DNA of 64,000 nt, from positions 124,001 through 188,000 of the forward strand of contig NZ_BBMP01000006.1 in NCBI RefSeq assembly GCF_000755245.1, written 5' to 3'. Position numbers and translations under genes: made by a program. Shown here one piece after another: positions 5,207 through 60,281 of the stretch. The notes under the pieces were generated by a model. The model made no database searches, was not told the DNA's origin, and saw only the letters and a list, made by a program, of their open reading frames with translations. This DNA comes from Halococcus sediminicola. Its GTDB lineage: Archaea > Halobacteriota > Halobacteria > Halobacteriales > Halococcaceae. Within the stretch, counting starts at the first letter, position 1; each line of letters opens with the position of its first letter.

Positions 5207-7213
5207 ATGACCTCCGTACCCGATACCGACGACATCGTCCACGACCCTTCACAGGAATTCGTCGAATCGACGAACGTGTGGGCGTTCATGCAGGAGTACG
5301 ATATCGACGACTACGACGAACTCGTCGCCAGAACCTGCGGCGACGTTGAGGGCGTCGAGGAGTCGGGCATCGAGTGGTTCTGGGACGAACTCGTCGACTA
5401 CCTCGACATCGAGTTTTACGAGGAGTACGACCGAGTGCGCGACAATTCGGATGGCCCGCAGTTCTCGGAGTGGTACCCCGGGGGGACGATCAACGTCGCG
5501 CACAACACGCTCGACCGCTACGCCGAGGGCGAGACACGGGACGAGGTGGCGTGTATCTGGGAGGGCGAACTCGGCGAGGTCCGCGAACTGACGTTCGGAG
5601 ACGTTCACGAGCAGGCCAACCGGGTGGCCAACGCCCTCGAAGAGCGCGGTATCGAGACCGGCGACACCGTGGGACTGTACATGCCGATGGTCCCCGAGGT
5701 CATCTCGATCCTGTACGGCTGTTTCAAGGTCGGCGCGATCGCCGTGCCCGTCTTCTCGGGCTTTGGCGTCGATGCGACCGCCACCCGACTCGCCGACGCC
5801 GAACCCACGGTCCTCTTTACGGGCGATGGGTTCTACCGCCGCGGCAGCGAGGTCCGACTGAAAGGGGCTGCCGACGACGCCATCGCCGAGGCGGGTCACG
5901 TCGAGCACACCGTCGTCTTCGATAGGCTGGGACTAACCCCCGAGAACGACGGCGAAGTGCCGTGGGACGACACACGGGACGAGACGTGGAGCGAGGCCGT
6001 CGGCGAGCAGTCGGCCGAGTACGACACGAAGGAACTCGACGCCTCACAGGAGTCGATGCTGCTCTACTCGTCGGGGACCACCGGCACGCCGAAGGGCATC
6101 GTCCACACGCACGCGGGCATCCTCATGCAGTGTGCGAAGGAGATCCACTTCGGGTTCGACCACAAGGACGACGACCGCTTCTTCTGGGTGTCCGATATCG
6201 GCTGGATGATGGGACCGTGGACGCTCATCGGCAATCACGCCCTCGGCGGCACGGTCATGATGTACGAGGGCGCACCGGACCATCCGGAACCCGATCGGTT
6301 CTGGCGGATGATCGACGACCACGACCTCACGCAGTTTGGCATCTCGCCGACGGCCATCCGCGCGCTGCGCAAAAAGGGCGACGACTGGGTCGCCGGTCAC
6401 GACCTCTCCAGTCTTCGATTACTCGGCTCGACCGGCGAGCCGTGGGACCCCGAATCGTGGTGCTGGTTCTACGAGAACGTGGGCGGCGGCGACACACCGA
6501 TCATCAACATCTCCGGCGGGACCGAGATCTGTGGCTGTTTCCTGATGCCGATGCCGATACAGTCGCTGAAACCCTGCACACTCGGCGGCCCAGGGCTGGG
6601 GATGGACATCGACATCGTGAACGCGGCGGGCGAGAGCGTGGCCGACGAACACGAAAGGGGCTTTCTGGTAGCGCGCGATTCGTGTCCCTCGATGACCAAG
6701 AGCCTCTGGAGCGGCGACGACCGGTATCTGGAGGAATACTGGTCGACCTTCGAGGACCCACCGCTCTGGAATCACGGCGATTGGGCACAGAAAGACGAGG
6801 ACGGCCTCTGGTTCCTGCACGGGCGGGCCGACGACGCGCTCAACGTCGCCGGGCGGAAAGTCGGTCCGGCGGAGGTCGAGGCGGCGCTCATCGAACACGA
6901 GAAAGCGAATCAGGCCGCCGCGGTCGGCGTCCCCGACGACACGACGGGAACGGCGGTGGTTGCCTACGTCGTCCTTGAAGACGGTGTGGAAACCTCGGAC
7001 GCACTGCGCGAGGAACTCACGGCGCAAGTCGGCGAGGAACTCGGCAAGCCGTTCAGGCCGCGCGAAGTCCTGTTCGTCGAGGAGTTTCCGAAGACCCAGT
7101 CGGGCAAGATCATCCGCCGCGCCATCGCGTCGGTCTATCGGGGCGAGGAGTTGGGCGACATGGACTCCATCGAGAACCCCGACGCGCTCGACGCCGTCGA
7201 GCAGGCGCGATAG
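5207..7213 (+). CDS. acetyl/propionyl-CoA synthetase-like AMP-forming ligase
   Basis: A 668-residue member of the adenylate-forming (ANL) family, the length usual for acetyl-CoA synthetase. The P-loop SSGTTGTPKGIVHTH lies near residue 287, the YRTGD-equivalent is seen as HGDWAQKDEDGLWFLHGRADDALNVAGRKVG, and the C-terminal catalytic lysine is in TQSGKIIRR near residue 631. It activates an acid to its acyl-CoA with ATP. The adjacent AtoE-type transporter and methylmalonyl-CoA enzymes suggest propionate or another short acid, but acetate cannot be excluded. The ATG is the first in frame and follows the divergent promoter gap. Confidence 0.85.
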   Translation: MTSVPDTDDIVHDPSQEFVESTNVWAFMQEYDIDDYDELVARTCGDVEGVEESGIEWFWDELVDYLDIEFYEEYDRVRDNSDGPQFSEWYPGGTINVAHNTLDRYAEGETRDEVACIWEGELGEVRELTFGDVHEQANRVANALEERGIETGDTVGLYMPMVPEVISILYGCFKVGAIAVPVFSGFGVDATATRLADAEPTVLFTGDGFYRRGSEVRLKGAADDAIAEAGHVEHTVVFDRLGLTPENDGEVPWDDTRDETWSEAVGEQSAEYDTKELDASQESMLLYSSGTTGTPKGIVHTHAGILMQCAKEIHFGFDHKDDDRFFWVSDIGWMMGPWTLIGNHALGGTVMMYEGAPDHPEPDRFWRMIDDHDLTQFGISPTAIRALRKKGDDWVAGHDLSSLRLLGSTGEPWDPESWCWFYENVGGGDTPIINISGGTEICGCFLMPMPIQSLKPCTLGGPGLGMDIDIVNAAGESVADEHERGFLVARDSCPSMTKSLWSGDDRYLEEYWSTFEDPPLWNHGDWAQKDEDGLWFLHGRADDALNVAGRKVGPAEVEAALIEHEKANQAAAVGVPDDTTGTAVVAYVVLEDGVETSDALREELTAQVGEELGKPFRPREVLFVEEFPKTQSGKIIRRAIASVYRGEELGDMDSIENPDALDAVEQAR

Positions 7214-7285
7214 CTCGCCCGCACACGATCTCGACAGTACCGCAGCGCGGAAAGGCTGATACCATCGCCTCCCCCACATCCGGCT

Positions 7286-7708
7286 ATGAGCACGCGCGCG
7301 TGGCGAGACCGCATCGTCGGCGACCGGATGACCGTCGATCAGGAGTTCGCCGATGCCGTCGAAAACTCACAGTTCAGCCGCCAGCAGTGGGGATTGATCA
7401 TGACGGCCGTCGAGTTCGAGATCCACGACCCGGAGACGGACTCCGCCCGCCTCGTCGCCGATACCGAGAAACTGCCCCACGTGATGGACGAACTCGAAAA
7501 CATCGATGCACGAACGAACTCGATGGGCGGAGCCGACGACTCCGGCGGCATCGTCGATTCGCTCAGAGGGATGCTCGGTGGCAATGACGGTAGCGACGAG
7601 CAGCTCGCGGCGGCCGAACGGCTCGCCGGGGAGTACGCCGACCGACTACAGACCCACCTCGAAGAGCGCGGGAAGTGGGACGAGATCCGCGCCGCCGCGC
7701 GCGACTAG
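7286..7708 (+). CDS. DUF5799 family haloarchaeal protein
   Basis: A 140-residue soluble acidic protein beginning MSTRAWRDRIVGDRMTVDQEFADAV, with a conserved core FSRQQWGLIMTAVEFEI. I recognise this as the haloarchaeal DUF5799 family, whose function is unknown. No catalytic motif or membrane segment is visible. The last 4 nt overlap the stop of a small convergent gene on the other strand. Confidence 0.75.
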   Translation: MSTRAWRDRIVGDRMTVDQEFADAVENSQFSRQQWGLIMTAVEFEIHDPETDSARLVADTEKLPHVMDELENIDARTNSMGGADDSGGIVDSLRGMLGGNDGSDEQLAAAERLAGEYADRLQTHLEERGKWDEIRAAARD

Positions 7709-7851
7709 GGACTGCCGCCGCGAAAGAGCGTGCGCTCTTCGGTCTCGTAGATGTTGATGAGTTCGGTCACGATCTCGTCGTAGGACTCTTCCTCGACGCG
7801 GAGGGCATCGAGACGGTCTATCGTGTCCTCGTCGAGTGAAATCTCGGGCAT
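7705..7851 (-). CDS. 48-residue antitoxin-like/DUF7557-type small protein
   Basis: A short ORF encoding 48 residues, beginning [18 protein letters not shown] and ending RTLFRGGSP. The pattern 'I[23 protein letters not shown]' is the VapB/RHH-like N-terminal pattern found in many tiny haloarchaeal proteins annotated as DUF7557 or antitoxins. No toxin (PIN) gene is adjacent. It ends by overlapping the 3' end of the DUF5799 gene by 3 nt and starts 40 nt downstream (in its own direction) of leuB's stop, so it could be read through from the leu operon. Confidence 0.65.
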
Positions 7852-38305: not shown

Positions 38306-39928
38306 TCAGTCGTCTTCCGTAGCCCCTGTATCGGACGGACTCTGGCTGCCCGAGCGGCTGCTCGTTCCGAACAATACCGTTTCCTCTCGCAGCAGGAGAT
38401 TGCCGTACTGCTGGCGGAAGGACTTCGTCAGCCCAATGACGGTCACGAGACCGAGGATGGCGATCGGGAGCGCGGTGATGGCGGCCGCCGACTGGAAGGC
38501 GTTCGCCTTGCCGATGAGGATGAGCACCGCCGCGACCGCACCCAGCAAGACGGCCCAGAAGACGCGGCTGATCGACGAGGGACTCTCCTTGCCGCCCGTG
38601 GTCAACATCGCCAGCGCGAGCGACGACGAGTCAGCCGACGTGACGAAGAACGTCACCACGAGGACGACGAACCCGACGAGCAGCAGCGACCCGAGCGGCA
38701 GCGCGCTGTAGAGCACGTAGCCCGAGACGGACTCGCCGAGGCGGTTGATGGGACCGAGCATGTTCGCCCGCCCGGTGTGCTGGAGCCACGTGCCGGCGGT
38801 GCCGAGGATCAGGAACCACGGCACCGACGCCAGCGCCATCGCGCCGGTGCCCGTGAAGGCGACCTCACGGACGCTGCGCCCGCGCGAGATGCGCGCGATG
38901 AATAGCCCGACGAAGGGCGACCACGCCAGCGGCCACGCCCAGAAGAAGACCGTCCAACTGTTGGCCCACGCGTTGTTGTTCGCCGTATCGAGAAAGAGGC
39001 TCATGCTGAAGAAGTCGGTGATGACGCCGCTCATCGCGTTGACCGACGTCTGGAGGATGAATACGGTCGGGCCGACGATGAGCGTGGCGACCATCAACAC
39101 GAAGAAGAGCACCATGTTGAAGTCGGACAGCCGACGGATGCCCTTGTCGACGCCGAGCAACAGCGAGACGGTAAAGAGCACCGTCATCCCGGTGATGACG
39201 AGTATCGTCCCCGTGCTGCCGAGGTCGATACCCCACTGATAATCGAGTCCGGTGAGGAACTGTCGGCCGATGAACCCGAGCGATGTCGCCACGCCGCCGA
39301 GCGTCGCGAACACCGCCAGCACGTCGACGAGCGTCGCCCAGTTGCTGTCCTTGATGCTGTCGGCACCGATAAAGGGCGTCAGAATCGACGAGACGCGCAG
39401 CGGCGCGCCGTGGTTGTAGACGTAGTAGCCGATGCCGATACCGAAGAGGGTGAAGCCGACGTACTGGGTGAACATCCAGTGAAAGGCCGAATACTGCACC
39501 GCGATCGGTATCGCGGCCGCCGACGCGTCGGCGACCCCGCCGTACAGCGGCGGGACGCTGCCGTAGTGCAGGAGTGCCTCGGTCGGCCCCCAGAAGGCGG
39601 TGCCAGCCGCGAGCCCCGCCGAGTAGAGCATTGCGAAATACGAGAAGTAGCTGTACTCCGGCGACTCGTCGCCGAACGTGAGATTTCCCCACGGCCCGAC
39701 GATGAGGAAGCCGAGGAAGATCAGGAAAAACAGCATGACGACGAGGTAGCCCCAGTTGAAGTTGTCGAGCACGAGCGCCTGCAACCCGCTAACGGCCCCG
39801 ACGAACGTGTCGGGGGCCACTAAAAACAGCACGATGAACAACACCGCGAGGCCCGCGCCGAAGGTGAACACTATCGGGTCGACTTCGTCGCGGAACTCCT
39901 CGACCATCCCCATCTCGGCGTCGCTCAC
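38306..39928 (-). CDS. BCCT family (betaine/choline/carnitine or ectoine) transporter
   Basis: A 540-residue transporter with 12 predicted helices. The family signature is in the region VFFWAWPLAWSPFVGLFIARISRGRSVREV, and helix 4 includes YSAFHWMFTQY. BCCT proteins import quaternary amines or ectoine with Na+ or H+, often for osmoprotection. It starts at a GTG that overlaps the stop of a 57-codon ORF. The downstream-facing RidA, aminotransferase and ectoine-hydrolase-like genes suggest that the imported compound can also be catabolised. Confidence 0.9.
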   Translation of the reverse strand: MSDAEMGMVEEFRDEVDPIVFTFGAGLAVLFIVLFLVAPDTFVGAVSGLQALVLDNFNWGYLVVMLFFLIFLGFLIVGPWGNLTFGDESPEYSYFSYFAMLYSAGLAAGTAFWGPTEALLHYGSVPPLYGGVADASAAAIPIAVQYSAFHWMFTQYVGFTLFGIGIGYYVYNHGAPLRVSSILTPFIGADSIKDSNWATLVDVLAVFATLGGVATSLGFIGRQFLTGLDYQWGIDLGSTGTILVITGMTVLFTVSLLLGVDKGIRRLSDFNMVLFFVLMVATLIVGPTVFILQTSVNAMSGVITDFFSMSLFLDTANNNAWANSWTVFFWAWPLAWSPFVGLFIARISRGRSVREVAFTGTGAMALASVPWFLILGTAGTWLQHTGRANMLGPINRLGESVSGYVLYSALPLGSLLLVGFVVLVVTFFVTSADSSSLALAMLTTGGKESPSSISRVFWAVLLGAVAAVLILIGKANAFQSAAAITALPIAILGLVTVIGLTKSFRQQYGNLLLREETVLFGTSSRSGSQSPSDTGATEDD

Positions 39929-40257: not shown

Positions 40258-40641
40258 TTATCGGTCGCCGAGAAACGCGATGCCATCCATCTCGACGGCG
40301 ACGTCGCCCGGCAAGCGGGAGACCTCGACGCAGACGCGAGCCGGCGGTGTCGCGCCAAAGCGTGCTCCGTAGGCGTCGTTCATCGCGTCGTAGTCGTCGA
40401 GGTCGGTGAGATAGACGGTCACTTTCACGAGGTCGGCAAGCGACCCGCCCGCGGCCGCGACGGTGCGCTCGACGTTTTCGAGGGCCTGCTCGGTCTGCGC
40501 TTCAACAGCGCCCGCGACCTCCTCGCCAGCAGAATCGACCGGGCCGTAACCCGACACGTATAGTGTGTCACCGGCGCTGACGGCCTGCGAGTAGGGGTTG
40601 TCGTTGCGCGGCGCGTCGTCGGTGACGATGCGTTCGGGCAT
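40258..40641 (-). CDS. ridA: RidA family enamine/imine deaminase
   Basis: A 127-residue RidA (YjgF/YER057c) protein. Conserved positions include the N-terminal APRNDNPYSQAVSAGDTLYVSG, the strand VKVTVYLTDLDDYDAMNDAYG, and the catalytic arginine in PPARVCVEVSRLPGDVAVEMDGIA. It hydrolyses reactive 2-aminoacrylate or other imines produced by PLP enzymes. It is immediately downstream of a class III aminotransferase (2 nt), and probably protects against or processes that enzyme's imine intermediate. Confidence 0.9.
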   Translation of the reverse strand: MPERIVTDDAPRNDNPYSQAVSAGDTLYVSGYGPVDSAGEEVAGAVEAQTEQALENVERTVAAAGGSLADLVKVTVYLTDLDDYDAMNDAYGARFGATPPARVCVEVSRLPGDVAVEMDGIAFLGDR

Positions 40642-40643
40642 CG

Positions 40644-42026
40644 TCAGGCGGTCGGCTGCTCGGCCGTCGTCACGTGGGAGATGGCGTCGGCGACGACGTC
40701 GAGGGCGGTGTCGGCGAGGTCGTCGGTGAGCACCAGCGGCGGCAACAGTCGGAGGACGTTGCCGTGGCGGCCGGCGGTCCAGACGAGGACGCCGTGTTCG
40801 TAGCAGTACTGCTGGATCGCATCCACGAGATCGGAATCGGGATTGCCGTCCCCGTCGACGAACTCCGCACCGACGAACAGTCCTCTCCCTCGGACTTCGC
40901 CGAGATGGCTGTTGCCGTCGGCGATCTCTCGCAGGCGCGCACGGATGTTAGCACCGAGGTCGCGCGCGTGGGCGAGCAGGTCGTGCTGTTGGATGTACTC
41001 GATGGCGCGGCTGCCGGCCCGCATCGCCACGACGTGGCCACGATACGTGCCGGCGTGGTCGCCCGATCCCCACGTATCGAGGTCCTCGCGGTAGATGGTC
41101 GCCGACAGCGGGAAGCCAATCCCTCCAAGAGCCTTCGCGGTGGTCATGATGTCGGGCGTGACGCCCTCGTGCTCGCCGGCCCACCACTCGCCGGTCCGAC
41201 CCATGCCGGCCTGAATCTCGTCGAAGATCAGGGGAAGGTCGTTCTCGTCGGCGATCTCGCGGAGTCCGGCGAGGAATCCCTCCGGTGGGACGACGACGCC
41301 GCCCTCGCCCTGAATCGGCTCGACGAAGATGCCTGCGGGGTTGGCAAGTCCGCCATAGGGGTCCTCGACGATGGCCGTGACCTCTTCAAGTGCGTGTTCG
41401 ACGGCCTCGTCGGGAGCTTTTCCCTGTTCGAACGGGTTCGGGTAGGGGGCGTGTACGACATCGGAAAGCAGCGGCGTGTAGTGCTCCTTCGCCCCGGTGT
41501 TCGAGGTGAGGCTGAGCGCGCCGCTGGTCGCGCCGTGGTAGGCCCCCCGAAAGGCGATGAGACCGTCACCACCGGTGTTGTACTTGGCGAGTTTGATGGC
41601 CGCCTCGATGGCGTCGCTGCCAGTCGGTCCTCCAAAGACGACGCGGTTGTTGCCCTGGAGGTTGCCGGGCGCTATCTCGTCGAGCTTCTCGATGAGTTCG
41701 AGGCGCGCCTCGGTCGGGAAATCAACAGTATGAACCAGTTTGTCGGCCTGTTCGTGGACTGCTTCCAACACATATGGATTGGCATGGCCGACGTTGAGCA
41801 CGCCGATGCCGCCGAACATGTCGATGAAGGTGTTGCCGTCGGCGTCCCGCACCGTCGCGCCCTTGCCCTCATCGAACGCGACGGGGATGTCCTCGGGATA
41901 GGCGACGGCGCTGCTGTCGATTTCGCGCTGCTTGTCGAGCAGTTCCTGCGATTCCGGTCCGGGAACGCTCCCGACGTTCGGTGCATCGTCGAAATGCAAG
42001 TCGCCGATGGGTGGACTATCGACCAT
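40644..42026 (-). CDS. class III aminotransferase (diaminobutyrate/GABA type)
   Basis: A 460-residue PLP-dependent aminotransferase. The phosphate-binding motif is [21 protein letters not shown] (133-153), the Asp of [15 protein letters not shown] (269) and the Schiff-base lysine 298 in [15 protein letters not shown]. The family acts on omega-amino groups (GABA, ornithine, 2,4-diaminobutyrate). It diverges from the ectoine-hydrolase-like gene at 42195, which makes a DoeD-like diaminobutyrate transaminase a reasonable guess. An in-frame GTG lies 4 codons upstream, but the ATG at 42026 has a TATA-like box about 27 nt upstream. It has a close paralogue at 47644. Confidence 0.87.
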
Positions 42027-42110
42027 GAAGGAGGCCACGGCGAACGGACGTAAATAACTTGTCCACAGTTAGTATGGCTGGTATCCACAGAAACCGTATC
42101 CGAGTTGGTG

Positions 42111-42194: not shown

Positions 42195-43373
42195 ATGCCC
42201 GGTGGTGTATTCGAACGAACGGAGTACGAGCGGCGTATCGAGCGGACGAAAGAGCGCATGCGCGAGCGGGGGCTCGATGCACTGGTGGTGACCGACCCCT
42301 CGAACATGAACTACCTCGCGGGCTACGACGGCTGGTCGTTCTACGTCCCGCAGGCGGTCATCGTCACCCACGAGCGTGACGAACCCGTGTGGGTCGGCCG
42401 CGGCATGGACCAACTCGGGGCGCAGGCGACGACATGGCTCGCCGAGGAAAATATTCACTCGTACAGCGATGATCACGTACACTCGCCGTACGACCTCCAC
42501 CCGATGGATTACGTCGCCGATCTGCTGGCGGACCTTGACGTCGGCGAGGGGAAAATAGGGGTCGAGATGGACGCCTACTACTTCACCGCGAAATCCTACC
42601 AGCGCCTGCGCGAGGGACTTCCCGAAGCGGGTTTCGAGGACACGACGCTACTCGTGAACTGGATTCGCATCTATAAATCGGAAGCCGAACTCGACTACAT
42701 GCGGCAGGCGGCGCGCATCTCCGAAAATGCAATGGAAGCAGGGTTGGATGCGGTCGGCGAGGGCGTGCCCGAGTACGAGGTCGCCGAGACCATCTATTCG
42801 GCGCTCATCGAGGGTACCGAAGAGTACGGCGGTGATTATCCCTCGATCGTTCCCTTGCTTCCCTCGGGCGATCATACGGGAACGCCGCATCTCACGTGGA
42901 CCGACCGACGCTTCGAGGAGGGCGACCCGGTCATCATCGAGCTATCTGGCTGTCGGAATCGCTATCACTCGCCGCTCGCGCGCACGACGTTCGTCGGCGA
43001 CCCACCGGAAAAACTGACTACGACCGCCGAAATCGTCGTCGAGGGCATCGACGCCGCGCTCGACGCCGCCGAACCGGGTGCCACCTGCGAGGAAGTCGAG
43101 AAAGCGTGGCGCGAGGTCATTCAGTCGTACGGCATCGAGAAGGAGGACCGCATCGGCTACTCGATGGGGCTTGGCTACCCGCCCGACTGGGGCGAACACA
43201 CCGCGAGCCTCCGGCCCGGCGACGAAACAGTTTTAGAGGAGGACATGACCTTCCACATGATTCCGGGTATCTGGCAGGACGACGTCGGCGTCGAGATCAG
43301 CGAGACCTTTCACGTGACTGCGACCGGCGCGGAGACGCTCGCCGAGTTCCCCCGGAAGCTGTTCTCGACCTGA
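42195..43373 (+). CDS. doeA: ectoine hydrolase-like M24 family protein (DoeA/EutD)
   Basis: A 392-residue creatinase/aminopeptidase-P-fold protein. The N-terminal domain has the pattern DPSNMNYLAGYDGWSFYVPQ (34-53), and IGVEMDAYYF (121-130) and IVPLLPSGDHTGTPHLTWT (218-236) follow, as I recall them for ectoine hydrolases. In true M24 peptidases two Asp metal ligands lie in the third strand pair. Here that region reads IIELSGCRNRYHSPLART (247-264) with E249 and H258, so the metal site looks altered, as in ectoine hydrolases reported to be metal-independent. The predicted reaction is hydrolysis of ectoine to N-acetyl-2,4-diaminobutyrate. It is divergent from a class III aminotransferase. A plain Xaa-Pro peptidase is less likely. 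Confidence 0.7.
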   Translation: MPGGVFERTEYERRIERTKERMRERGLDALVVTDPSNMNYLAGYDGWSFYVPQAVIVTHERDEPVWVGRGMDQLGAQATTWLAEENIHSYSDDHVHSPYDLHPMDYVADLLADLDVGEGKIGVEMDAYYFTAKSYQRLREGLPEAGFEDTTLLVNWIRIYKSEAELDYMRQAARISENAMEAGLDAVGEGVPEYEVAETIYSALIEGTEEYGGDYPSIVPLLPSGDHTGTPHLTWTDRRFEEGDPVIIELSGCRNRYHSPLARTTFVGDPPEKLTTTAEIVVEGIDAALDAAEPGATCEEVEKAWREVIQSYGIEKEDRIGYSMGLGYPPDWGEHTASLRPGDETVLEEDMTFHMIPGIWQDDVGVEISETFHVTATGAETLAEFPRKLFST

Positions 43374-43480: not shown

Positions 43481-44983
43481 TTAGTCGTCGGTGTCGTTTT
43501 CGTCGTCCTCGTCGACCGCTCCGTCGCCGTCGTTGTCGACGTCGTCCGAGTTTCCGCTGTCGTGTTCGTCGTTTTCGTCGTAGTGGCCGTCACCGTCATC
43601 GTCGTCTTCGGCGTCGCCGTCGAAATCGTCCGAGCCGTCGTCGCCGTCGTCGGGTTCGTCGTCCTCATCGATGGCTCCATCCCCGTCATCGTCGTCGTTC
43701 GATGGACCGCCATCGCCCTCGTCGTCTTCGTCAACGTGCCCGTCGCCGTCGTCGTCCTCGTCGTTCGCGCCGCGTTCGTCGTCCGGTTCCGGTTCGTCGA
43801 CGGGGACGTCCGCCCAGACGAGCCGGTGGTCGGAGGCGGTACGGACGGCTTCGAGCAGGCCGCGCTCGTCTGTTCTCTCGCTCGGCCAGACGACCGCCGA
43901 GCGCTCGATGCCGAGGTCGGGCGAGGGAAGTACGTAGTCGACCTGTGATTCGAACTCGGCGGTCCAGAACGCAGAGCGCGGTCCGTTCTTCGCCGCGCCG
44001 CCGGGACTCGTCGGGAACGGCGGCGCGATGAACCCGTCGTCGTTCCTGACGAAGTAACTGGTGGCAGCGTTGAGACTCTCCTCGTCGCCGGGCGCAGCGT
44101 TCATGTCTCCCATCAGGACGTACGAGTCGTCCCCGTCGAGACCGCCCTGCCTCCCGCTGTCGTCGTAGGGATACTCGGCACCGGCAGCGTAATCCGCCAG
44201 GAGGCGGATCTCGTCGTGATTGCGCTTGCCGTTGAAGTTCCCTTCGCCGTCGAAGACCGGCGGCGTGGGATGGGCGCTCAAGGCGTGGATGGTTTCGTCG
44301 CCAACCGCAACGGGAACGTCGATGTGGGTCTTCGACGAGAGGCGGAACTCGTCGGCTTCGGCGGCCGAGAGATACATCTCGGTATTCGGGTCCCGTGGAA
44401 GCAGACTGTCGGGCATGTCCTTCCAGAGGAACGTTCTGAACGTGCGGATCGCGTCCCGCTGGATGGGGAATCGGCTGAGAACCGCCAGTCCGTACTGGCC
44501 GGGAAACTCCCCGAACCCGTAGGCGTCGTTGCCGTAGGTGCGATCACCGGGCGTGTCGTCCACCTCGCCATTGTTGTCGAGGTCGAGGTCGCTGGCGACG
44601 CCCGTGTTGGTCTTCGGCATGACTGTTTCTGAGTAGTCGATGCCTCGGAGGTCGGAGCGCTGCGGGACGCTGAGATAGTTGTCGACGAACGCGCGTGCGT
44701 TCGAGGGCGACGACGGGACGTCGTTGACCCGATTCGCCTGACGATTGTTGGTGAGTTCGTTGAGCACCAGTACGTCCGGCCGGACCTCCTGGATGACGCG
44801 CGCCGCGGCGGCCGCCTGCTCGTCGCCGGGCGACTGTACCTGCTCGGTGCGGAGGTCGACCACGTTGTAGGTGGCGAACGTGACGGTTTCCGTGGGTGTT
44901 TCGTTGGCCCCGGCCGTCCCGGTTGCGAGAGCGGCCGTCCCGGCGATCGCGAGGAAATCACGGCGTGTGACAGTTGGTCGCAC
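43481..44983 (-). CDS. exported endonuclease/exonuclease/phosphatase with Asp-rich C-terminal repeats
   Basis: A 500-residue protein. The GTG start gives VRPTVTRRDFLAIAGTAALATG, a Tat signal, and a T-rich box lies about 25 nt before it (45006-45012). The EEP domain shows TFATYNVVDLRTEQ, DVLVLNELTNN, YVLMGDMNAAPGDEESL and TASDHRLVWADVPV, the usual metal and catalytic residues of DNase I-like enzymes. From about residue 405 the chain is almost purely acidic, with units like DDDGDGHVDEDDE and DNDGDGAVDEDDE that are calcium-binding or thrombospondin type 3-like. It probably acts outside the cell on nucleic acid or a phosphodiester. Confidence 0.85.
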   Translation of the reverse strand: MRPTVTRRDFLAIAGTAALATGTAGANETPTETVTFATYNVVDLRTEQVQSPGDEQAAAAARVIQEVRPDVLVLNELTNNRQANRVNDVPSSPSNARAFVDNYLSVPQRSDLRGIDYSETVMPKTNTGVASDLDLDNNGEVDDTPGDRTYGNDAYGFGEFPGQYGLAVLSRFPIQRDAIRTFRTFLWKDMPDSLLPRDPNTEMYLSAAEADEFRLSSKTHIDVPVAVGDETIHALSAHPTPPVFDGEGNFNGKRNHDEIRLLADYAAGAEYPYDDSGRQGGLDGDDSYVLMGDMNAAPGDEESLNAATSYFVRNDDGFIAPPFPTSPGGAAKNGPRSAFWTAEFESQVDYVLPSPDLGIERSAVVWPSERTDERGLLEAVRTASDHRLVWADVPVDEPEPDDERGANDEDDDGDGHVDEDDEGDGGPSNDDDDGDGAIDEDDEPDDGDDGSDDFDGDAEDDDDGDGHYDENDEHDSGNSDDVDNDGDGAVDEDDENDTDD

Positions 44984-45355
44984 GAACTGTCGTCCGACCG
45001 CTAGAGCAAAAAACTGCCGTTGCCGGAGTCTTCCCGACGATCCAGACGCTCCGAACGGACGGAAGATTCTCCTCCGTCGCCCGCTCCCTCTCGGTGCGGT
45101 GAATGTGTCGTTGACACCCGAATCACAGCCACTATCGAATGATTTCGCCCATCTCAGCCTCATCGGGTTCACTTTCACAGTGCTGTTAGCGCCGGCTTAT
45201 CCCGGTCGGTCACGTCCTTCATCGTATGGTAGCAATCGTAGGGACCGAACGTTCGAAGGGACGAAACGCACCGTCCGACTCGTCGATGCACCGAACACGA
45301 CGGCGAGGTGCAGAGACGATCGAAAGCGAGGGTTCTGTGCCCGAATAACCGAACC
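44984..45355. other. intergenic region between the EEP gene and SWIM gene
   Basis: A 372-bp gap with the promoter of the EEP gene (minus, TATA-like at about 45012-45006) at its left edge. I see no conserved ORF on either strand; long open frames here are continuations of frames opposite the EEP gene. The right end holds the start region of the SWIM protein. Confidence 0.35.
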
Positions 45356-51695: not shown

Positions 51696-51946
51696 TTGCG
51701 GTTATCTGGTCGTTCCGGTGTACGCATTACCTTATTGGTATTTTTCTTTCATATTTCCCGTGGCTATTTATCCCGTAACGCCATCGGGCGACGTCGTTCT
51801 CCGCTGCTCCCGATTCGCCTTCCAAACCGCCGCGCGACGATGACTGCTCACGGCGCGCTCGATAGCACGCCCACGAGTCGCAAATCGGTGTACCGCTCTC
51901 CGTGATGGCGGCCAAGGTTGATTATCGCCCGCCGCCATGCTCGCTC

Positions 51947-52708
51947 ATGGTGACGATCGACATCAACTGCGACATGGGCGAGAGCTTCGGCAACTGGTCG
52001 ATGGGCCGCGACGAGGAAGTGATGCCCTACATCACCTCCGCCAACATCGCCGGCGGCTACCACGCCGGCGATCCACACGTTATGCGCGAAACCGTCGACC
52101 GTGCCGTCGGTCACGATGTCGGTATCGGCGTTCATCCCGGCCTGCCGGACAAGATGGGGTTCGGTCGTCGGCAGATGGACGCGACCCCGGAGGAGTTGCG
52201 CGAGTACGTGCTCTACCAACTCGGTGCGCTCTCGTCGTTCGCCGACGCCAACGGAGCCTCGGTACAGCACGTGAAACCCCACGGCGCGATGTACTCGATG
52301 CTCTCGGAGAGTCCCGACCACGCGCGGGCCGTCATGGAGGGGATCACCGAACTGGATGCGGACCTCATCTATCTGGCGACCGATATGAACATCTACGAAG
52401 TCGCACAGGAATTCGACGATCTCAAGAGTGTGTTCGAGGGCTACGTCGACCTCACCTACCGGCCGGACCGAAGCGTCATCGTCGAACAGGAGAAGGAACG
52501 GCCGGACACGGAGCTGGTCGCCGAGCGGTTCGTCAGTATCGCGCTGGACGGCGAGGTCGAGGCCGAAAACGGCGAGACGATCGACATTCCGGCCGACAGC
52601 ATCTGTATCCACGGCGACACGCCGAACGCCGTGGAGATTCTGGAAGCGATCCACGACCGGGTCGACGAGCACGACATCGAACTCGCCCCGCTTGCCGAGA
52701 TCGTCTGA
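51947..52708 (+). CDS. pxpA: 5-oxoprolinase subunit A (LamB/YcsF family)
   Basis: A 253-residue LamB/YcsF protein, starting MVTIDINCDMGESFGNWSMG. The family motifs are SANIAGGYHAGDPHVM, GVHPGLPDKMGFGRR and KPHGAMYSML, where the acidic and histidine residues form the site. In bacteria it acts with PxpB and PxpC to cleave 5-oxoproline to glutamate using ATP. A TATA-like ttgattatcg (51917-51926) is about 27 nt before the ATG. It converges with pxpC with 16 nt between stops. Confidence 0.88.
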   Translation: MVTIDINCDMGESFGNWSMGRDEEVMPYITSANIAGGYHAGDPHVMRETVDRAVGHDVGIGVHPGLPDKMGFGRRQMDATPEELREYVLYQLGALSSFADANGASVQHVKPHGAMYSMLSESPDHARAVMEGITELDADLIYLATDMNIYEVAQEFDDLKSVFEGYVDLTYRPDRSVIVEQEKERPDTELVAERFVSIALDGEVEAENGETIDIPADSICIHGDTPNAVEILEAIHDRVDEHDIELAPLAEIV

Positions 52709-52724
52709 TCAATCGGTTATCCGC

Positions 52725-53693
52725 TCAGCCGAGAGAATCTCGAATCGCATCGAGAGTCCGCGACTGTGCCTTTCTCGCGTCGAGCGCCTCGTCGATCGAT
52801 ATCGACTCGAAATCGACCGTCCCGTGCGTCGGCCGCTGGGCGAGCCGGTCACGGTCGGGGCTGATGACGGTCCCGACCGTCGCGTAGCCGCCGCCGGTGA
52901 CGGCATCGCGCATCAGGATGATCGGCTGTTCGGGCACCTGAATCGAGCCGATGGGATAGCCGAGATCCACGACGTTCGAGGGATCCGCCCCGGCACCGAA
53001 CGGCTGTTCGCGCTCGACGAACTCGATGTCGGGTCCCGTGAGCCGATAGCCCACCCGGTCGGCCTCGGGTGTCACCGACCAGTCGGCGTCGAGAAATGCT
53101 TCCTTACTCTCGTCGGTCAGGCGGTAGTCGCAGAGACCCATCACGACCCGGATCGAGGCGTCGTCGGCGTAGTCCGGGCGATGGTCGGATTCGACGCTGT
53201 TTCCGACAAAGTTGGATCCATCGGAGGCGTCACCCACTGAGAGCACGTCGCCGGCTTCGAGTTCGCGGCCCTCGTAGCCGCCGAGACCGATGAGCGTGTA
53301 GGTGGCACGGCTGTCCATGACGGTGGGGACGTCGATGCCGCCGGCGATGGCGAGATACGACCGCGCGCCCGCGGTCGCGTAGTCGACCGAGAGGGTCTGG
53401 CCGGCATCGACGGAGACGGCCTCCCAGAGCGGGACGTCCTCGCCGTCGAGTTCGGGCGACATGTCCGCCCCGGTGACGGCGACGACGGCGTCCTCCTCGA
53501 ATTCGAGGTCGGATCCATAATACGTCATTTCGAGCGTTGCGGCGTCCTCGGAGTTGCCGACGAGCGCGTTCGCCACTCGATGGGCGAACTCGTCCATCGC
53601 ACCTGCGGGCGGCATCCCGATGTGGTAGTGGCCGTATCGACCGGTATCCTGGACCGTCGTCGACAGTCCCGGCTCTTCGACACGGAGGCTCAT
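52725..53693 (-). CDS. pxpC: 5-oxoprolinase subunit C (KipA/AHS2 family)
   Basis: A 322-residue member of the AHS2/KipA family, [47 protein letters not shown], with the conserved [15 protein letters not shown] segment. It forms the ATP-dependent 5-oxoprolinase with PxpA and PxpB. It is often annotated as a biotin-dependent carboxyltransferase family protein, although it is not a carboxylase by itself. It overlaps the start of pxpB by 4 nt. Confidence 0.87.
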
Positions 53694-54592
53694 GCGACTT
53701 CCTCCACGACCCGCTCGTTGTATCCATATGGGTCGGCGAAGAACTCGTCCGGCTCGAAGGCCAGATCACCAGTGGTGTACTCGTAGCTGTCGTTCTCGAC
53801 CGCGTTCCGGATCCGGTCGTACTCGTCGCGGTCGATCCGCCGGAACGTGACGATGTCGCCGGGATTGAGATAGACCATCGACTCCTCGAACCCGGACAGC
53901 GACTGCTCGACGTCGAGCACCTCGACCGGCGTCCGTCCGAACAGCTGGTAGCCGCCCGCGCCCTGGACCGGATAGACCACCGAGAACGCTCCGCCGTACC
54001 CGATCGCGCGGCTCGGCGTGTTCGTGCGCGGCTGGACGTACTTCGGGACCTCGATCTGGCGGTCGGCGGGCACCATCTGAAACATCCACGGAAGCCCGGG
54101 GACGAAGCCCATCATCGTCACCATCTGTGGCTGGCTCGAGTGGGCCTCGATGAACGCCTCGGCGCTGTCGTAGCCGTTGATCCGAGCCGAGTACTCGAGA
54201 TCGGTCGATTCCGGGTCCTGATGGTTGTCCCTGAAATCCATCATCACCTCGTGGGTCCACGGGTCATCGTAGAGGACGGGGATCTCGACGACCCGGGCGT
54301 CCCACGAGTAGTCCGTGAGGTCGATATCGGCAGCGATCTCCTCCAAGGTCTCGATGAGCGCGTCCGGGTGCAGGCGGTCGGGGTCGAATCGGAGCAGGTA
54401 GGATGCGTTCGCCGGGCACACCTCGACGACCCCGTCGATGTCACGCCGTCGGACCTGCTGAGTGATCGCCATCGCCTTGAAATTGGCATCGAAACTCATC
54501 GCCTCGTCGAGTTCGACGAACACGTGGTCGTCCCCACCGTACGTATACCGTGGCTCGGGGAGGCTCCGGCGCTCGATGACGTCTTCGCTCAT
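53690..54592 (-). CDS. pxpB: 5-oxoprolinase subunit B (KipI/AHS1 family)
   Basis: A 300-residue AHS1/KipI protein. The core contains [15 protein letters not shown] and [42 protein letters not shown]. It is longer than the roughly 220-240 residues of bacterial PxpB; the N-terminal part carries an extra region ([24 protein letters not shown]). It partners PxpC. The pair is divergent from accC at 54689, with a 96-bp shared promoter region. Confidence 0.85.
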
Positions 54593-54688
54593 GGTCCGTT
54601 GACCTCTCTCGACCGATCCACCTATACTTTCCGCAAAATTGAGTCCGCCGAGCGCCATCACTTTTACGCGTGGTGCGCGAAACCGCGA

Positions 54689-56035
54689 ATGATGTTCGAC
54701 GAAGTACTCGTCGCGAACCGTGGCGAGATCGCCGTTCGCGTCATTCAGGCGTGTCACGAACTCGGAATCGACGCGGCCGTCGTCTATAGCGACACCGACG
54801 AGCACGCAAAGCACGTCCGACAGGCCGACGAGGCGGTCCACGTCGGGTCGTCGGCCGCACGCGAGAGCTATCTCGACCAGGACGCCATCCTGGACGCTGC
54901 CCGCCAAGTGGATACTGATGCGATCCATCCGGGTTACGGCTTTCTCGCCGAGAACGCGGACTTCGCGGCCGCCGTCGAGGAGAGCCAGTTCGTCTGGGTC
55001 GGGCCGTCGAGCGACAGCATGACCACGTTCGGCGAGAAGATCCGTGCTCGACAGCAGATGGACCGCGCGGGCGTCCCCATCGTTCCCGGCTCGACTGACC
55101 CGATCGATTCGGCCGCCGAGGTGGAATCGTTCGCAACCGAACACGGCTATCCCGTTGCGATCAAGGCCACCGGTGGCGGTGGTGGCCGTGGACTCGAAGT
55201 CGTCGACGAGGGCGACGACGTCGATTCGAAGCTACAGAAAGCGCGCCAAGAGGGAAAGGAGTATTTCGACAATCCGGCTGTCTACGTCGAGAAGTATCTC
55301 GAAAGCCCTCGCCACATCGAGGTGCAGGTCATCGCGGACGAACACGGCAACGTCCGCCATCTCGGCGATCGTGACTGCTCGCTCCAGCGCCGTCAGCAGA
55401 AGCTCCTCGAAGAGACCCCGTCGCCGGCGCTCTCGGCCGACGAACGGGAAGCGGTCTGCGAGGCGGCGCGTCGCGGCATCGCCGAATCGGAGTACGTCAA
55501 CGCCGGCACCGTCGAGTTCCTCTACGAGAACGGCGAGTTCTACTTCCTCGAAGTCAACGCGCGCATCCAGGTCGAACACACGATCTCCGAGGTGGCAACG
55601 GGTATCGATCTGGTGGCGTGGCAGCTCCGCGTCGCCGCTGGCGAGGAGTTGGAGTTCGCCCAGTCCGACATCCAGCACCGCGGCGCTGCCATCGAGTTCC
55701 GGATCAACGCCGAGAACCCGAGCGAGGACTTCGCCCCGATGCCGGGCGAGTTGACGACCTATCGGCCGCCGCGCGGAATCGGCGTCAGGATCGACGATGG
55801 GGTCGACGAAAATGATAGAATAAGCCCGTTCTACGACTCGATGGTCGCGAAGTTCGTCGTGAGCGGAATCGACCGCGACGAGGCGATCCGTCGCGGGAAG
55901 CGAGCGCTTCGAGAGGCGGCCATCGAGGGCATTCCGACGACGATTCCGTTCCATCTACAGGCGCTCGACGACGAAGCCTTCCTATCCGGCGACCACACCA
56001 CCAAGTACGTCGACGAAGGGATGGATATCGACTAG
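54689..56035 (+). CDS. accC: biotin carboxylase (acetyl-CoA carboxylase subunit A type)
   Basis: A 448-residue ATP-grasp biotin carboxylase. The N-terminal preATP domain starts [27 protein letters not shown], the glycine-rich loop is [14 protein letters not shown], and the catalytic segment is [22 protein letters not shown], with the C-terminal biotin-carboxylase domain intact. It carboxylates the biotin of the nearby AccB. Two ATG codons are in tandem at 54689 and 54692; a TATA-like cttttacgcg (54661-54670) is about 23-28 nt upstream. No dedicated carboxyltransferase subunit is nearby, so the acceptor is unclear. Confidence 0.88.
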
Positions 56036-56666: not shown

Positions 56667-57644
56667 CTATCGAGGCGTTTCCCACGGTGTGCGAACGGCG
56701 TTTTCCAGTTCCTCACCCGAATCGAGGCGTTCGACGTTGCGCGCGACGATGTCGGCGAGGCGCTCCCAGTGGTGGGGTGTGTGCCCGCCCGTGTGGGGCG
56801 TGATGAGGCAGTTTTCGAGCGTCCAGAGCGGGTGTTTTTGGGGTAGGGGTTCGGGGTCGGTTACGTCGAGCGCCGCGCCACGGATGGTTTCGGACTGGAG
56901 CGCCGCCACGAGCGCGTCGGTGTCGACGATACCACCACGAGCGGCGTTGACGACAACTGCCGATGGAGGTAGGGTGGCGAGCGCCTCGCCATCGACGAGT
57001 CCGCGCGTCGTCTCGGTCAGCGGACAGGCGATGGTGAGGTAGTCGGTCCGTGCGAGCGCGTCGTGGAACTCCTCCTCGCCGAACCCACACACTTCGTCGG
57101 TCGGGCCACCCTTTTCGGGTGTGTAGCGAACGCCGATGGTATCCACTTCGAAGCCCTGCAATCGCTTGGCGAGGGCCTGCCCGATGGCACCGAGTCCGAC
57201 GATAGTCACAGTACTGTCGGTGAATTCGCCCGATTGGAAGTGTCGCCACTCGCGGTTCTGCTTGCGTCGCCAGCCCTCGTGGAGCCGTCGGGCGAACACG
57301 AGCATGTTCCCGATGGCCTGCTCGGCGATGCCCGGAGCATGAATGCCGCCGGCGTTCGTGACGGCGACGCCGCGCTCTGTGAGCGCATCGACCGGCACGT
57401 GGTCGGTGCCGGCGAACGTGCACGCGAATAGTTCGAGATTTTCCGCTCTATCCAGCAGGCTCTCGTCGAGGTCGATGCCGGTGACGACGCGCGCGCCTTC
57501 GACGAGTTCGCGCTCTTCGTGCGGCGTTCGGGCGAGTTGGATCTCCAGTTCAGACAGTCGCTCGCGGAGTCGATCCGCGTACGCTGCCATCGACAGTCCT
57601 TCCGTTCCCTCGCGGAGCACGAGAATATCTGTATCGGCGGTCAT
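56667..57644 (-). CDS. D-isomer-specific 2-hydroxyacid dehydrogenase
   Basis: A 325-residue NAD(P)-dependent dehydrogenase. The Rossmann loop is VGLGAIGQALAKRLQGF, NAARGGIVDTDALV carries the catalytic Arg, DPEPLP the Glu, and TPHTGGHTP the His. It reduces a 2-oxo acid or oxidises a D-2-hydroxy acid such as glyoxylate, hydroxypyruvate or phosphoglycerate. The N-terminal region is short and lacks an ACT or serine-regulatory domain, so SerA is not expected. It diverges from the amidohydrolase at 57749. Confidence 0.85.
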   Translation of the reverse strand: MTADTDILVLREGTEGLSMAAYADRLRERLSELEIQLARTPHEERELVEGARVVTGIDLDESLLDRAENLELFACTFAGTDHVPVDALTERGVAVTNAGGIHAPGIAEQAIGNMLVFARRLHEGWRRKQNREWRHFQSGEFTDSTVTIVGLGAIGQALAKRLQGFEVDTIGVRYTPEKGGPTDEVCGFGEEEFHDALARTDYLTIACPLTETTRGLVDGEALATLPPSAVVVNAARGGIVDTDALVAALQSETIRGAALDVTDPEPLPQKHPLWTLENCLITPHTGGHTPHHWERLADIVARNVERLDSGEELENAVRTPWETPR

Positions 57645-57748
57645 GGATCCCTCACTCGCGCGGTCGGCCGGTCCCGTCTTATCGCTTTTGCGTGATGGCT
57701 TCAACAGTAACCGTACATTATTATGATGGTGGGGCGACATTGGCCGGT

Positions 57749-59029
57749 ATGGCAGTATCAGTAGCCGACCGACTCGTGGACGTCCGCCGCCGACTCCATC
57801 GCTTTCCCGAACCGGCGTGGCGCGAGTTCCGCACGACGGCCGCGCTCGTCGAGGAGCTCCGGAGTATCGGCGTCGACGAACTCGCGGTCGGTCCCGACGC
57901 CTACGACCCCGACGACCGGATGGCCATTCCCGGCGAATCCGAACTCGCTCCGTGGTACGACCGCGCCCGCGAGGCCGGGGTCGACGAGGACCTACTCGCG
58001 CAGATGGAGGGCGGCAACACCGGCGTCGTCGCCGTCCTCGAAAAGGGAGCAGGGCCTTCGGTCGGCCTCCGCGTTGACATCGACGGGCTGTTGATCGAAG
58101 AATCCGACGAGAGCGGCCACCACCCACAGGCCGAGGGTTTTCGCTCGGAGACGGGCGAGACGATGCACTCGTGTGGCCACGACGGACACATGACCATCGG
58201 TCTCGGCGTGCTCGAAGCCATCGAGGAGAGCGACTTTGCGGGAACCTTCACCGTGTTTTTCCAGCCCGCCGAGGAAGAGTCGGGCGGCGGGAACCCGATG
58301 GCCGAGAGTCGCTTCGCCGACGGACTGGACTACCTCTTCGCCGTGCATCTCGGTCTCGACCATCCCTCCGGCGAGGTCGTCGCGGGCATCGAGAAGCCGC
58401 TGGCGATGTGTCACCTCACCGCCGAGTTCATCGGCACGTCCGCCCACGCTGGCAAGGCTCCACAGCAGGGCGACAACGCGATACAGGCGATGGCCACGGC
58501 CATCCAGAATATCTACGGGACTCCGCGCCACAGCGACGGGATGACACGGGTCAACGTCGGCCGGGCGGACGCCGGCAGCGCGAGCAACGTCATCGCCGAG
58601 CGCGCGAAGCTCTGGGGCGAGGTGCGCGGCGAGACGACGCCGCTGCGCGAGTACATGAAAACCGAGTTCGAGCGCACCCTCTACGCGGCGGCCGAAGTCC
58701 ACGACTGCGACGTGGACTTCAAGATCGTCAGCGAGTCGCCGAGAGCCGACAGCGATCCGGAACTCGCCGAGGTCGTCTACGAGGTCGCCGACGGAATGGA
58801 ACGCGTCGATTCCACAGTCAAATCGGCCGAATTCGGCGCGAGCGAGGACGCGACCTTCCTGATGGAGCGTGTCCAGGACGAGGGTGGGCTCGCGACCTAT
58901 CTCATCGTCGGCACCGACCACCCGACGAGCCACCACACGCCGACCTTCGACATCGACGAGGCGAGTCTCGAAACGGGTATCGACGTTCTGACCGACTCGA
59001 TCCTCGCCGTCGCCGATGGGCGAGTCTGA
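57749..59029 (+). CDS. M20 family amidohydrolase (AbgA/AbgB-like)
   Basis: A 426-residue metal-dependent amidohydrolase of the M20D group, start MAVSVADRLVDVRRRLHRFPEPAWREFRT. The metal motif MHSCGHDGHMTIGLGVLEAIEE, the pair PAEEESGGG, and VHLGLDHPSGEVV are characteristic. The middle insertion and length fit aminoacyl or N-acyl amino acid hydrolases such as the AbgA type, but the substrate is not known. A TATA-like cattattatg (57716-57725) is about 27 nt before the ATG. It overlaps by 14 nt the downstream threonine ammonia-lyase gene, so the two act on related substrates in one transcript. Confidence 0.82.
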   Translation: MAVSVADRLVDVRRRLHRFPEPAWREFRTTAALVEELRSIGVDELAVGPDAYDPDDRMAIPGESELAPWYDRAREAGVDEDLLAQMEGGNTGVVAVLEKGAGPSVGLRVDIDGLLIEESDESGHHPQAEGFRSETGETMHSCGHDGHMTIGLGVLEAIEESDFAGTFTVFFQPAEEESGGGNPMAESRFADGLDYLFAVHLGLDHPSGEVVAGIEKPLAMCHLTAEFIGTSAHAGKAPQQGDNAIQAMATAIQNIYGTPRHSDGMTRVNVGRADAGSASNVIAERAKLWGEVRGETTPLREYMKTEFERTLYAAAEVHDCDVDFKIVSESPRADSDPELAEVVYEVADGMERVDSTVKSAEFGASEDATFLMERVQDEGGLATYLIVGTDHPTSHHTPTFDIDEASLETGIDVLTDSILAVADGRV

Positions 59030-60281
59030 CCTGACTGCGGCGGAGATCGTGAGTCTCGCCGATGTCGAGGCGGCCCGCGAGCGCATCGCCAACGTCGTCC
59101 ATCGCACGCCGCTCGACACCTCGCGGACGTTTGCCGACATGAGCGGCGCAAGGTCGGTGGGTCTCAAACTGGAGGCGATGCAGCGCACCGGCTCGTTCAA
59201 GATACGTGGCGCGTACAACCGGCTGTCGCAACTCTCGGCCGACGAGCGAGCCAACGGCGTCGTCGCGTCGAGCGCGGGCAATCACGCGCAGGGGGTGGCG
59301 CTCGCCGGACAGTTGCTCGATATCGACACGACAATCGTCGTCCCGGAGATAACGCCCGCGGCGAAGATCGACGCGACGAGAGGTTACGGAGCCGACGTCA
59401 TCGTCGAAGGCGAGCAGTACGAGGCGTCCTACGAACGGGCGCTCGACATCGCCGACGAGGAACGTCGAGAATTCGTCCACCCGTTCGACGACGCGGCCAT
59501 CATCGCTGGACAGGGAACTATCGGATGCGAACTCCTCGAACAACTGCCCGATCTCGACACGGTGATCGTCTCCATCGGCGGCGGTGGCCTGATTTCGGGT
59601 ATCGCAACCGCGCTCAAAGCCCACGACTCAGATGTTCGCGTCATCGGCGTTCAGCCCGAGGGCGCAGCCCACGCCAAGCCGTCACTCGAAAAAGGAGAGA
59701 TTCGCCGGCTTTCGACCGTGGACACCGTCGCCGAGGGCATCGCCGACGCACGACTGCTCGAAAAGACGTTCGCCGTCGTCCGCGAGCGCGTCGACGACGT
59801 CGTTGCGGTATCGGACGACGAACTGAGCGCCGCGGTGGCGCTGACCGCTGAGCGTGCGAAAGTCGTCGCCGAAGCCGCGGGCGTGGCCCCGGTCGCGGCG
59901 CTGCTCTCGGACGGTCTCGATGTCGAGAATGAGACCGTCGCTGCGGTCGTCTCCGGCGGCAACGTGGGTCTGCGCGAACACGCCGAACTCGTGCGTTCGG
60001 GATTGCTCAAGCGTGGTCGATACGCAACCGTGCGCCTCGAACTTCGCAACTGGCCGACCGGTGTCGCCGCGGTCGTCGACGCAATCGAGGAGTGCGGGGC
60101 CGAACTCGACGAACTGGCGCGCGTTCGCCGCGACCGCGGAGACAGGCCCAATCGCACGCCCATCGAACTCGTCGTCGCGGGCAGCGGTCGAAACCATCTC
60201 GAAACGGTCGTCGAATCGCTGGACGATCTGGACGGCATTGGAGTGGCCGAGTGTTCGCCCGATCCACGGTCGACCGGGTAG
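59016..60281 (+). CDS. ilvA: threonine ammonia-lyase (biosynthetic type)
   Basis: A 421-residue PLP enzyme that deaminates threonine (and serine) to 2-oxobutyrate. The Schiff-base lysine is K62 in SFKIRGAYNRL, and the glycine-rich loop is VSIGGGGLISGIATAL. A C-terminal ACT-like domain of about 80 residues (VRLELRNWPTGVAAVVDAIEECGA) could allow feedback control. The product feeds the ilvBNC pathway encoded 45 kb away. It overlaps the amidohydrolase by 14 nt, so it may alternatively be a catabolic deaminase of an amino acid released by that enzyme. Confidence 0.87.
   Translation: MGESDLTAAEIVSLADVEAARERIANVVHRTPLDTSRTFADMSGARSVGLKLEAMQRTGSFKIRGAYNRLSQLSADERANGVVASSAGNHAQGVALAGQLLDIDTTIVVPEITPAAKIDATRGYGADVIVEGEQYEASYERALDIADEERREFVHPFDDAAIIAGQGTIGCELLEQLPDLDTVIVSIGGGGLISGIATALKAHDSDVRVIGVQPEGAAHAKPSLEKGEIRRLSTVDTVAEGIADARLLEKTFAVVRERVDDVVAVSDDELSAAVALTAERAKVVAEAAGVAPVAALLSDGLDVENETVAAVVSGGNVGLREHAELVRSGLLKRGRYATVRLELRNWPTGVAAVVDAIEECGAELDELARVRRDRGDRPNRTPIELVVAGSGRNHLETVVESLDDLDGIGVAECSPDPRSTG

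Follow-up and report, generated by a model that had tools for sequence, protein, structure and literature searches.

Ectoine is a solute that is made and released by halophilic bacteria and that protects them against salt. A 64-kb stretch of a haloarchaeal genome (hereafter the window, G000:C6:124001-188000, from a 3.76 Mb assembly of 27 contigs) encodes an M24-family protein that an earlier note on this DNA matched to ectoine hydrolases, raising the question of whether a haloarchaeon could degrade this solute and which genes would carry out the individual steps.

Family and fold of the window protein

The eutD-like open reading frame is intact (ATG at 42195, TGA at 43373) and encodes 392 amino acids. 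In a search of the NCBIfam profiles, the protein matched the ectoine hydrolase model TIGR02993 with 474.3 bits (E = 3.1e-142), a match far beyond chance that bears out the assignment of the earlier note, and the motifs on which that assignment had been based (DPSNMNYLAGYDGWSFYV, IGVEMDAYYF and GLGYPPDWGEHT) are all found in the protein. The DoeA_2 model reached 245 bits and the top peptidase model 116 bits, which leaves ectoine hydrolase more than 350 bits ahead of any peptidase. In a search of the PDB sequences, DoeA of Halomonas elongata (6twk) scored 387 bits, 270 bits ahead of the top prolidase chain (117 bits). The TIGR02993 score misses the equivalog cut-off of 613 bits; haloarchaeal and Bacillota relatives score 429–512 bits on the same model.

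The AlphaFold model of the protein (pLDDT 88.1, pTM 0.83) displays a pita-bread fold that is nearest to the EutD structures, aligning with the substrate-bound and product-bound H. elongata enzyme (6yo9 and 6twk; 42–46% identity) at Z scores of 47.5 and 47.2 over 389 residues (2.2 Å). Creatinase is the next family by structure (Z = 38.9, 22–23% identity), prolidases reach Z scores of at most 37.8, and a Foldseek search agrees.

These comparisons bear on two other identities of the protein. An ordinary M24 Xaa-Pro dipeptidase or aminopeptidase would agree with the matching Pfam domains (M24 and creatinase N-terminal) and with public plasmid records that label the orthologues “M24 family metallopeptidase”, but the prolidases fall well behind ectoine hydrolase among both models and structures, a wide margin in the very comparison for which the earlier note had called, and all five metal-ligand positions are replaced (see below). 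Based on profiles, structures and ligand positions this identity was rejected as highly improbable. A creatinase-like amidinohydrolase that acts on a guanidino compound was judged equally implausible: creatinases share the pita-bread fold and supply the best structural match after DoeA, but this match is far weaker than that to DoeA (Z = 47) and no creatinase model is found among the NCBIfam matches, and the candidate was rejected because both profiles and structures favor DoeA. The window protein is thus a member of the EutD/DoeA group by fold and residues that lies outside the curated equivalog.

Replacement of the metal ligands

The five-residue metal-binding site of the M24 peptidases was located by alignment with the Pyrococcus prolidase and with an M24 paralogue from the same genome. 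None of the five ligands (0/5) is kept in the window protein, in which the D-D-H-E-E set corresponds to E249, P260, Y328, I356 and S369. Because all five positions are changed, the enzyme is predicted to be metal-free. The earlier note had reached the same conclusion from E249 and H258, which it placed at the pair of Asp ligands. Both residues are present at these positions and E249 does align with the first Asp, but the counterpart of the second Asp is P260, and H258 is not a ligand replacement because the M24 paralogue carries a His there as well. What that note had said about the family, the motifs, the neighboring gene and the metal-free state is retained, and only H258 as a ligand position is given up. 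Among 125 family sequences, E249 and R263 are invariant, and Y50, H232, Y257, W332 and E334 are invariant or nearly so. E249 is the counterpart of E255 in DoeA, which we take to be a catalytic residue.

The gene cluster and its distribution

The eutD gene is flanked by genes for an aminotransferase, a RidA-type protein and a carrier, and a second block with an M20 amidohydrolase is located further downstream (table 1).

Table 1. Features of the putative ectoine cluster, with positions in the window
Feature	Position	Strand	Evidence
BCCT transporter	38306..39928	-	PF02028 461 bits; betaine BCCT model 389 of 650
RidA-type enamine/imine deaminase	40258..40641	-	TIGR00004 125.6 bits, above cut-off 106.25
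Class III aminotransferase, divergent partner of eutD	40644..42038	-	PF00202; PRK05769 420 bits
EutD/DoeA-like ectoine hydrolase, M24 fold	42195..43373	+	TIGR02993, PDB 6twk, model Z, ligand positions
D-2-hydroxyacid dehydrogenase family gene (D2HDH)	56667..57644	-	NF041369 249 bits, cut-off 400
M20 amidohydrolase	57692..59029	+	TIGR01891 245.3 bits, above cut-off 153.75
IlvA-type threonine ammonia-lyase family dehydratase	59016..60281	+	TIGR01127 399 bits, above cut-off 378.75

The divergent neighbor of eutD is a class III aminotransferase, as had been noted before, and is nearest to the acetylornithine and diaminobutyrate transaminase families, with all matches below cut-off (e.g., 345 bits for dat, TIGR00709, cut-off 401.6). 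It may act on diaminobutyrate as suggested earlier, but its diaminobutyrate transaminase matches are below cut-off only and among the aminotransferases a different one shows the most consistent association with the haloarchaeal cluster. This cluster-linked aminotransferase is 78–83% identical among most haloarchaeal relatives compared, and its orthologue in the source genome (70% identity) is located just past the end of the window (C6:188409-189761), followed by an aldehyde dehydrogenase gene (C6:190616-192004). BCCT genes are found close to EutD in many haloarchaeal loci, and the carrier in the window probably imports ectoine or another compatible solute. Its BCCT box reads FFWAWPLAWSP, and variants among the EutD-linked carriers include WAWP, WLWP, WAWA and WAWV, all unlike the WGWW of betaine carriers. 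EnuR, Ehu and Ueh were not recognised in the window cluster.

Within the second block, the dehydratase gene overlaps the M20 gene. The dehydratase is one of three IlvA genes above cut-off in the genome and scores lowest among them, as would be expected of a specialised gene more than of a housekeeping one; an EutB-like role is proposed for it (237 of 413 bits on the EutB model TIGR02991). Orthologues of the D2HDH (70–82% identity) adjoin the M20 gene in the same arrangement in other haloarchaea. The M20 protein scores 107.6 bits on the DoeB2 model NF038260, below the cut-off of 550, is approximately 26% identical to the M20 of Priestia, and has two further paralogues in the genome (56–57% identity).

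Among the sampled genomes of the class, 144 out of 391 contained an EutD match (E ≤ 1e-60), representing 41 of 86 genera. Genes for EutE/DoeB (TIGR02994) above cut-off were found in none of the 391 genomes (best score 129 of 402.7 bits), and the source genome of the window contains distant matches only, the best at 1.7e-29. A close M20 homologue, defined by a threshold of E ≤ 1e-166 that was set post hoc at a visible gap in the E values, is present in 139 out of 144 EutD-positive genomes versus 1 out of 247 EutD-negative genomes. Because these counts come from genomes with shared ancestry, the Fisher p value cannot be read as a true probability, but both states (with and without) occur within 23 genera, as counted by eye from genus codes. 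The two genes lie within 16 kb of each other in 118 of 125 pairs. D2HDH and M20 were identified near EutD in 17 out of 20 haloarchaeal loci, most of them together with the dehydratase, and in 9 out of 10 loci of a further haloarchaeal set. The block occurs, whole or in part, in Haladaptatus, Haloferax, Halobium, Natrialba, Halarchaeum and Natronosalvus. In the EutD tree, which leaves the order of the deep branches unsettled, the main haloarchaeal clade forms a single group (99). A second haloarchaeal EutD-like group (L060, L061 and L095; 57–58% identity) stands apart from this clade, with a BCCT gene nearby in L061 and L095.

The bacterial relatives display a similar composition. The neighbors of the Bacillota genes (50–60% identity) include EutB, EutC, transporter genes of the Ehu or Ueh type, and M20, but no EutE; overall, M20 was present in 49 out of 67 bacterial loci of relatives and EutE in none (0/67) within the stretch examined. 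Rhizobial plasmids carry EutD-like genes with M20 and either EhuABCD or EutA, again without EutE in the stretch examined, and other such plasmids pair EutD with EutE. On the rhizobial symbiosis plasmid pNGR234a (locus L065), two EutD-like genes lie beside EhuABCD, EutB, EutC and M20, with no EutE annotated in that stretch. Family members in Clostridia and on rhizobial symbiosis plasmids show mixed gene contexts, and the rhizobial paralogues and the second haloarchaeal group may act on other substrates.

The predicted substrate and a possible route

Taken as a whole, the locus is likely to be a catabolic cluster in which ectoine or hydroxyectoine is the predicted substrate and an M20 amidohydrolase takes the place of EutE. 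Alternatively, the haloarchaeal clade might combine the metal-free EutD fold with a related substrate other than ectoine (e.g., a different cyclic amidine, or else an N-acyl amino acid derivative), the product of which would be processed by the M20, the dehydratase and the aminotransferase. Such a substrate would accommodate the EutD score below the equivalog cut-off, the lack of EutE above cut-off in the 391 genomes, a cluster without EnuR, Ehu or Ueh, the mixed contexts in Clostridia and on rhizobial symbiosis plasmids, and BCCT box residues that differ from those of betaine carriers. However, the near-invariant residues of the active region are common to the window protein and H. elongata DoeA, and the bacterial relatives at 50–60% identity adjoin EutB, EutC and Ehu/Ueh-type genes, and we regard a substrate other than ectoine as rather unlikely.

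Under the ectoine reading, the BCCT carrier would import ectoine, and EutD, by analogy with the bacterial enzyme, would open the tetrahydropyrimidine ring without a metal to yield N-alpha-acetyl-diaminobutyrate, the invariant Glu249 probably acting as nucleophile. The genome-wide linkage and the bacterial clusters that lack EutE point to the M20 amidohydrolase as the enzyme that would remove the acetyl group, making it a candidate N-acetyl-diaminobutyrate deacetylase in place of EutE/DoeB. Since this protein scores low on the DoeB2 model, we infer its substrate from context. The two paralogues at 56–57% identity make recruitment from a resident family plausible; together with the low DoeB2 score and the distance from the Priestia M20, these close paralogues also suggest that the M20 may act otherwise. 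A class III aminotransferase and an aldehyde dehydrogenase would then convert diaminobutyrate to aspartate, and, more speculatively, the dehydratase, RidA and the D-2-hydroxyacid dehydrogenase could serve 5-hydroxyectoine in the manner of the bacterial EutB and EutC.

The window protein resembles H. elongata EutD/DoeA (6twj, 6twk and 6yo9) in fold, length, the near-invariant residues of the active region and the changed M24 ligands, with approximately 46% identity across the entire protein, and differs in its score below the curated cut-off, its archaeal origin, and an M20 instead of an EutE partner. The deacetylase of Methylotuvimicrobium alcaliphilum shares only 22% identity with H. elongata DoeB yet functions in vivo, and the roles of the doeBDAC genes are backed by mutants (PMC7192451). 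As predicted for the haloarchaeal cluster, that system degrades ectoine with a deacetylase very unlike EutE; it differs from the present one in that the window protein is nearer to EutD than to DoeA_2 (474 versus 245 bits) and that the window M20 has a low score on DoeB2 (108 of 550 bits). Judging by the model names, the M. alcaliphilum gene is presumably the DoeB2 reference.

A review from 2018 described ectoine consumers as limited to Proteobacteria (PMC5924519), and the literature searched yielded no account of haloarchaea growing on ectoine. The remark in the earlier note that ectoine catabolism by archaea is little described holds, although putative EutD clusters of Halobacteria were published in April 2026 (PMC13188858). 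The accessible part of that report lists more than 100 archaeal EutD matches with aminopeptidase, aminotransferase and BCCT neighbors, termed provisional, as well as Bacillota clusters that lack eutE and contain abgB. Its Halobacteria clusters share the protein group, the aminotransferase and the BCCT carrier with the window, so that haloarchaeal EutD is mostly anticipated there. The genome-wide co-occurrence of M20, the D2HDH-M20-dehydratase block and the count of genomes without EutE do not appear in that part, and the M20 linkage is what the present analysis adds: it points to a concrete candidate gene for the missing deacetylase. If approximately one third of haloarchaeal genomes (144/391) do consume ectoine, archaea would be sizeable consumers of this solute, with consequences for carbon and nitrogen cycling in hypersaline environments.

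A search of the genome for ectoine synthase returned no match, but neither did its control, so the gene may still be present. Between EutD and the M20 block, the window encodes 5-oxoprolinase-type PxpA, PxpC and PxpB together with a biotin-carboxylase-like open reading frame (51902-56035), and an Exo_endo_phos protein (43481-45178, minus strand) ends in a long acidic run of DDDGDG-type repeats at its C-terminus. A second M20/dehydratase pair is present elsewhere in the genome (G000:C4:112000-125000, locus L158, positions 5278-7766), where an M20 paralogue (56% identity) is divergent from a threonine-dehydratase-like gene and a transporter-like open reading frame lies alongside.
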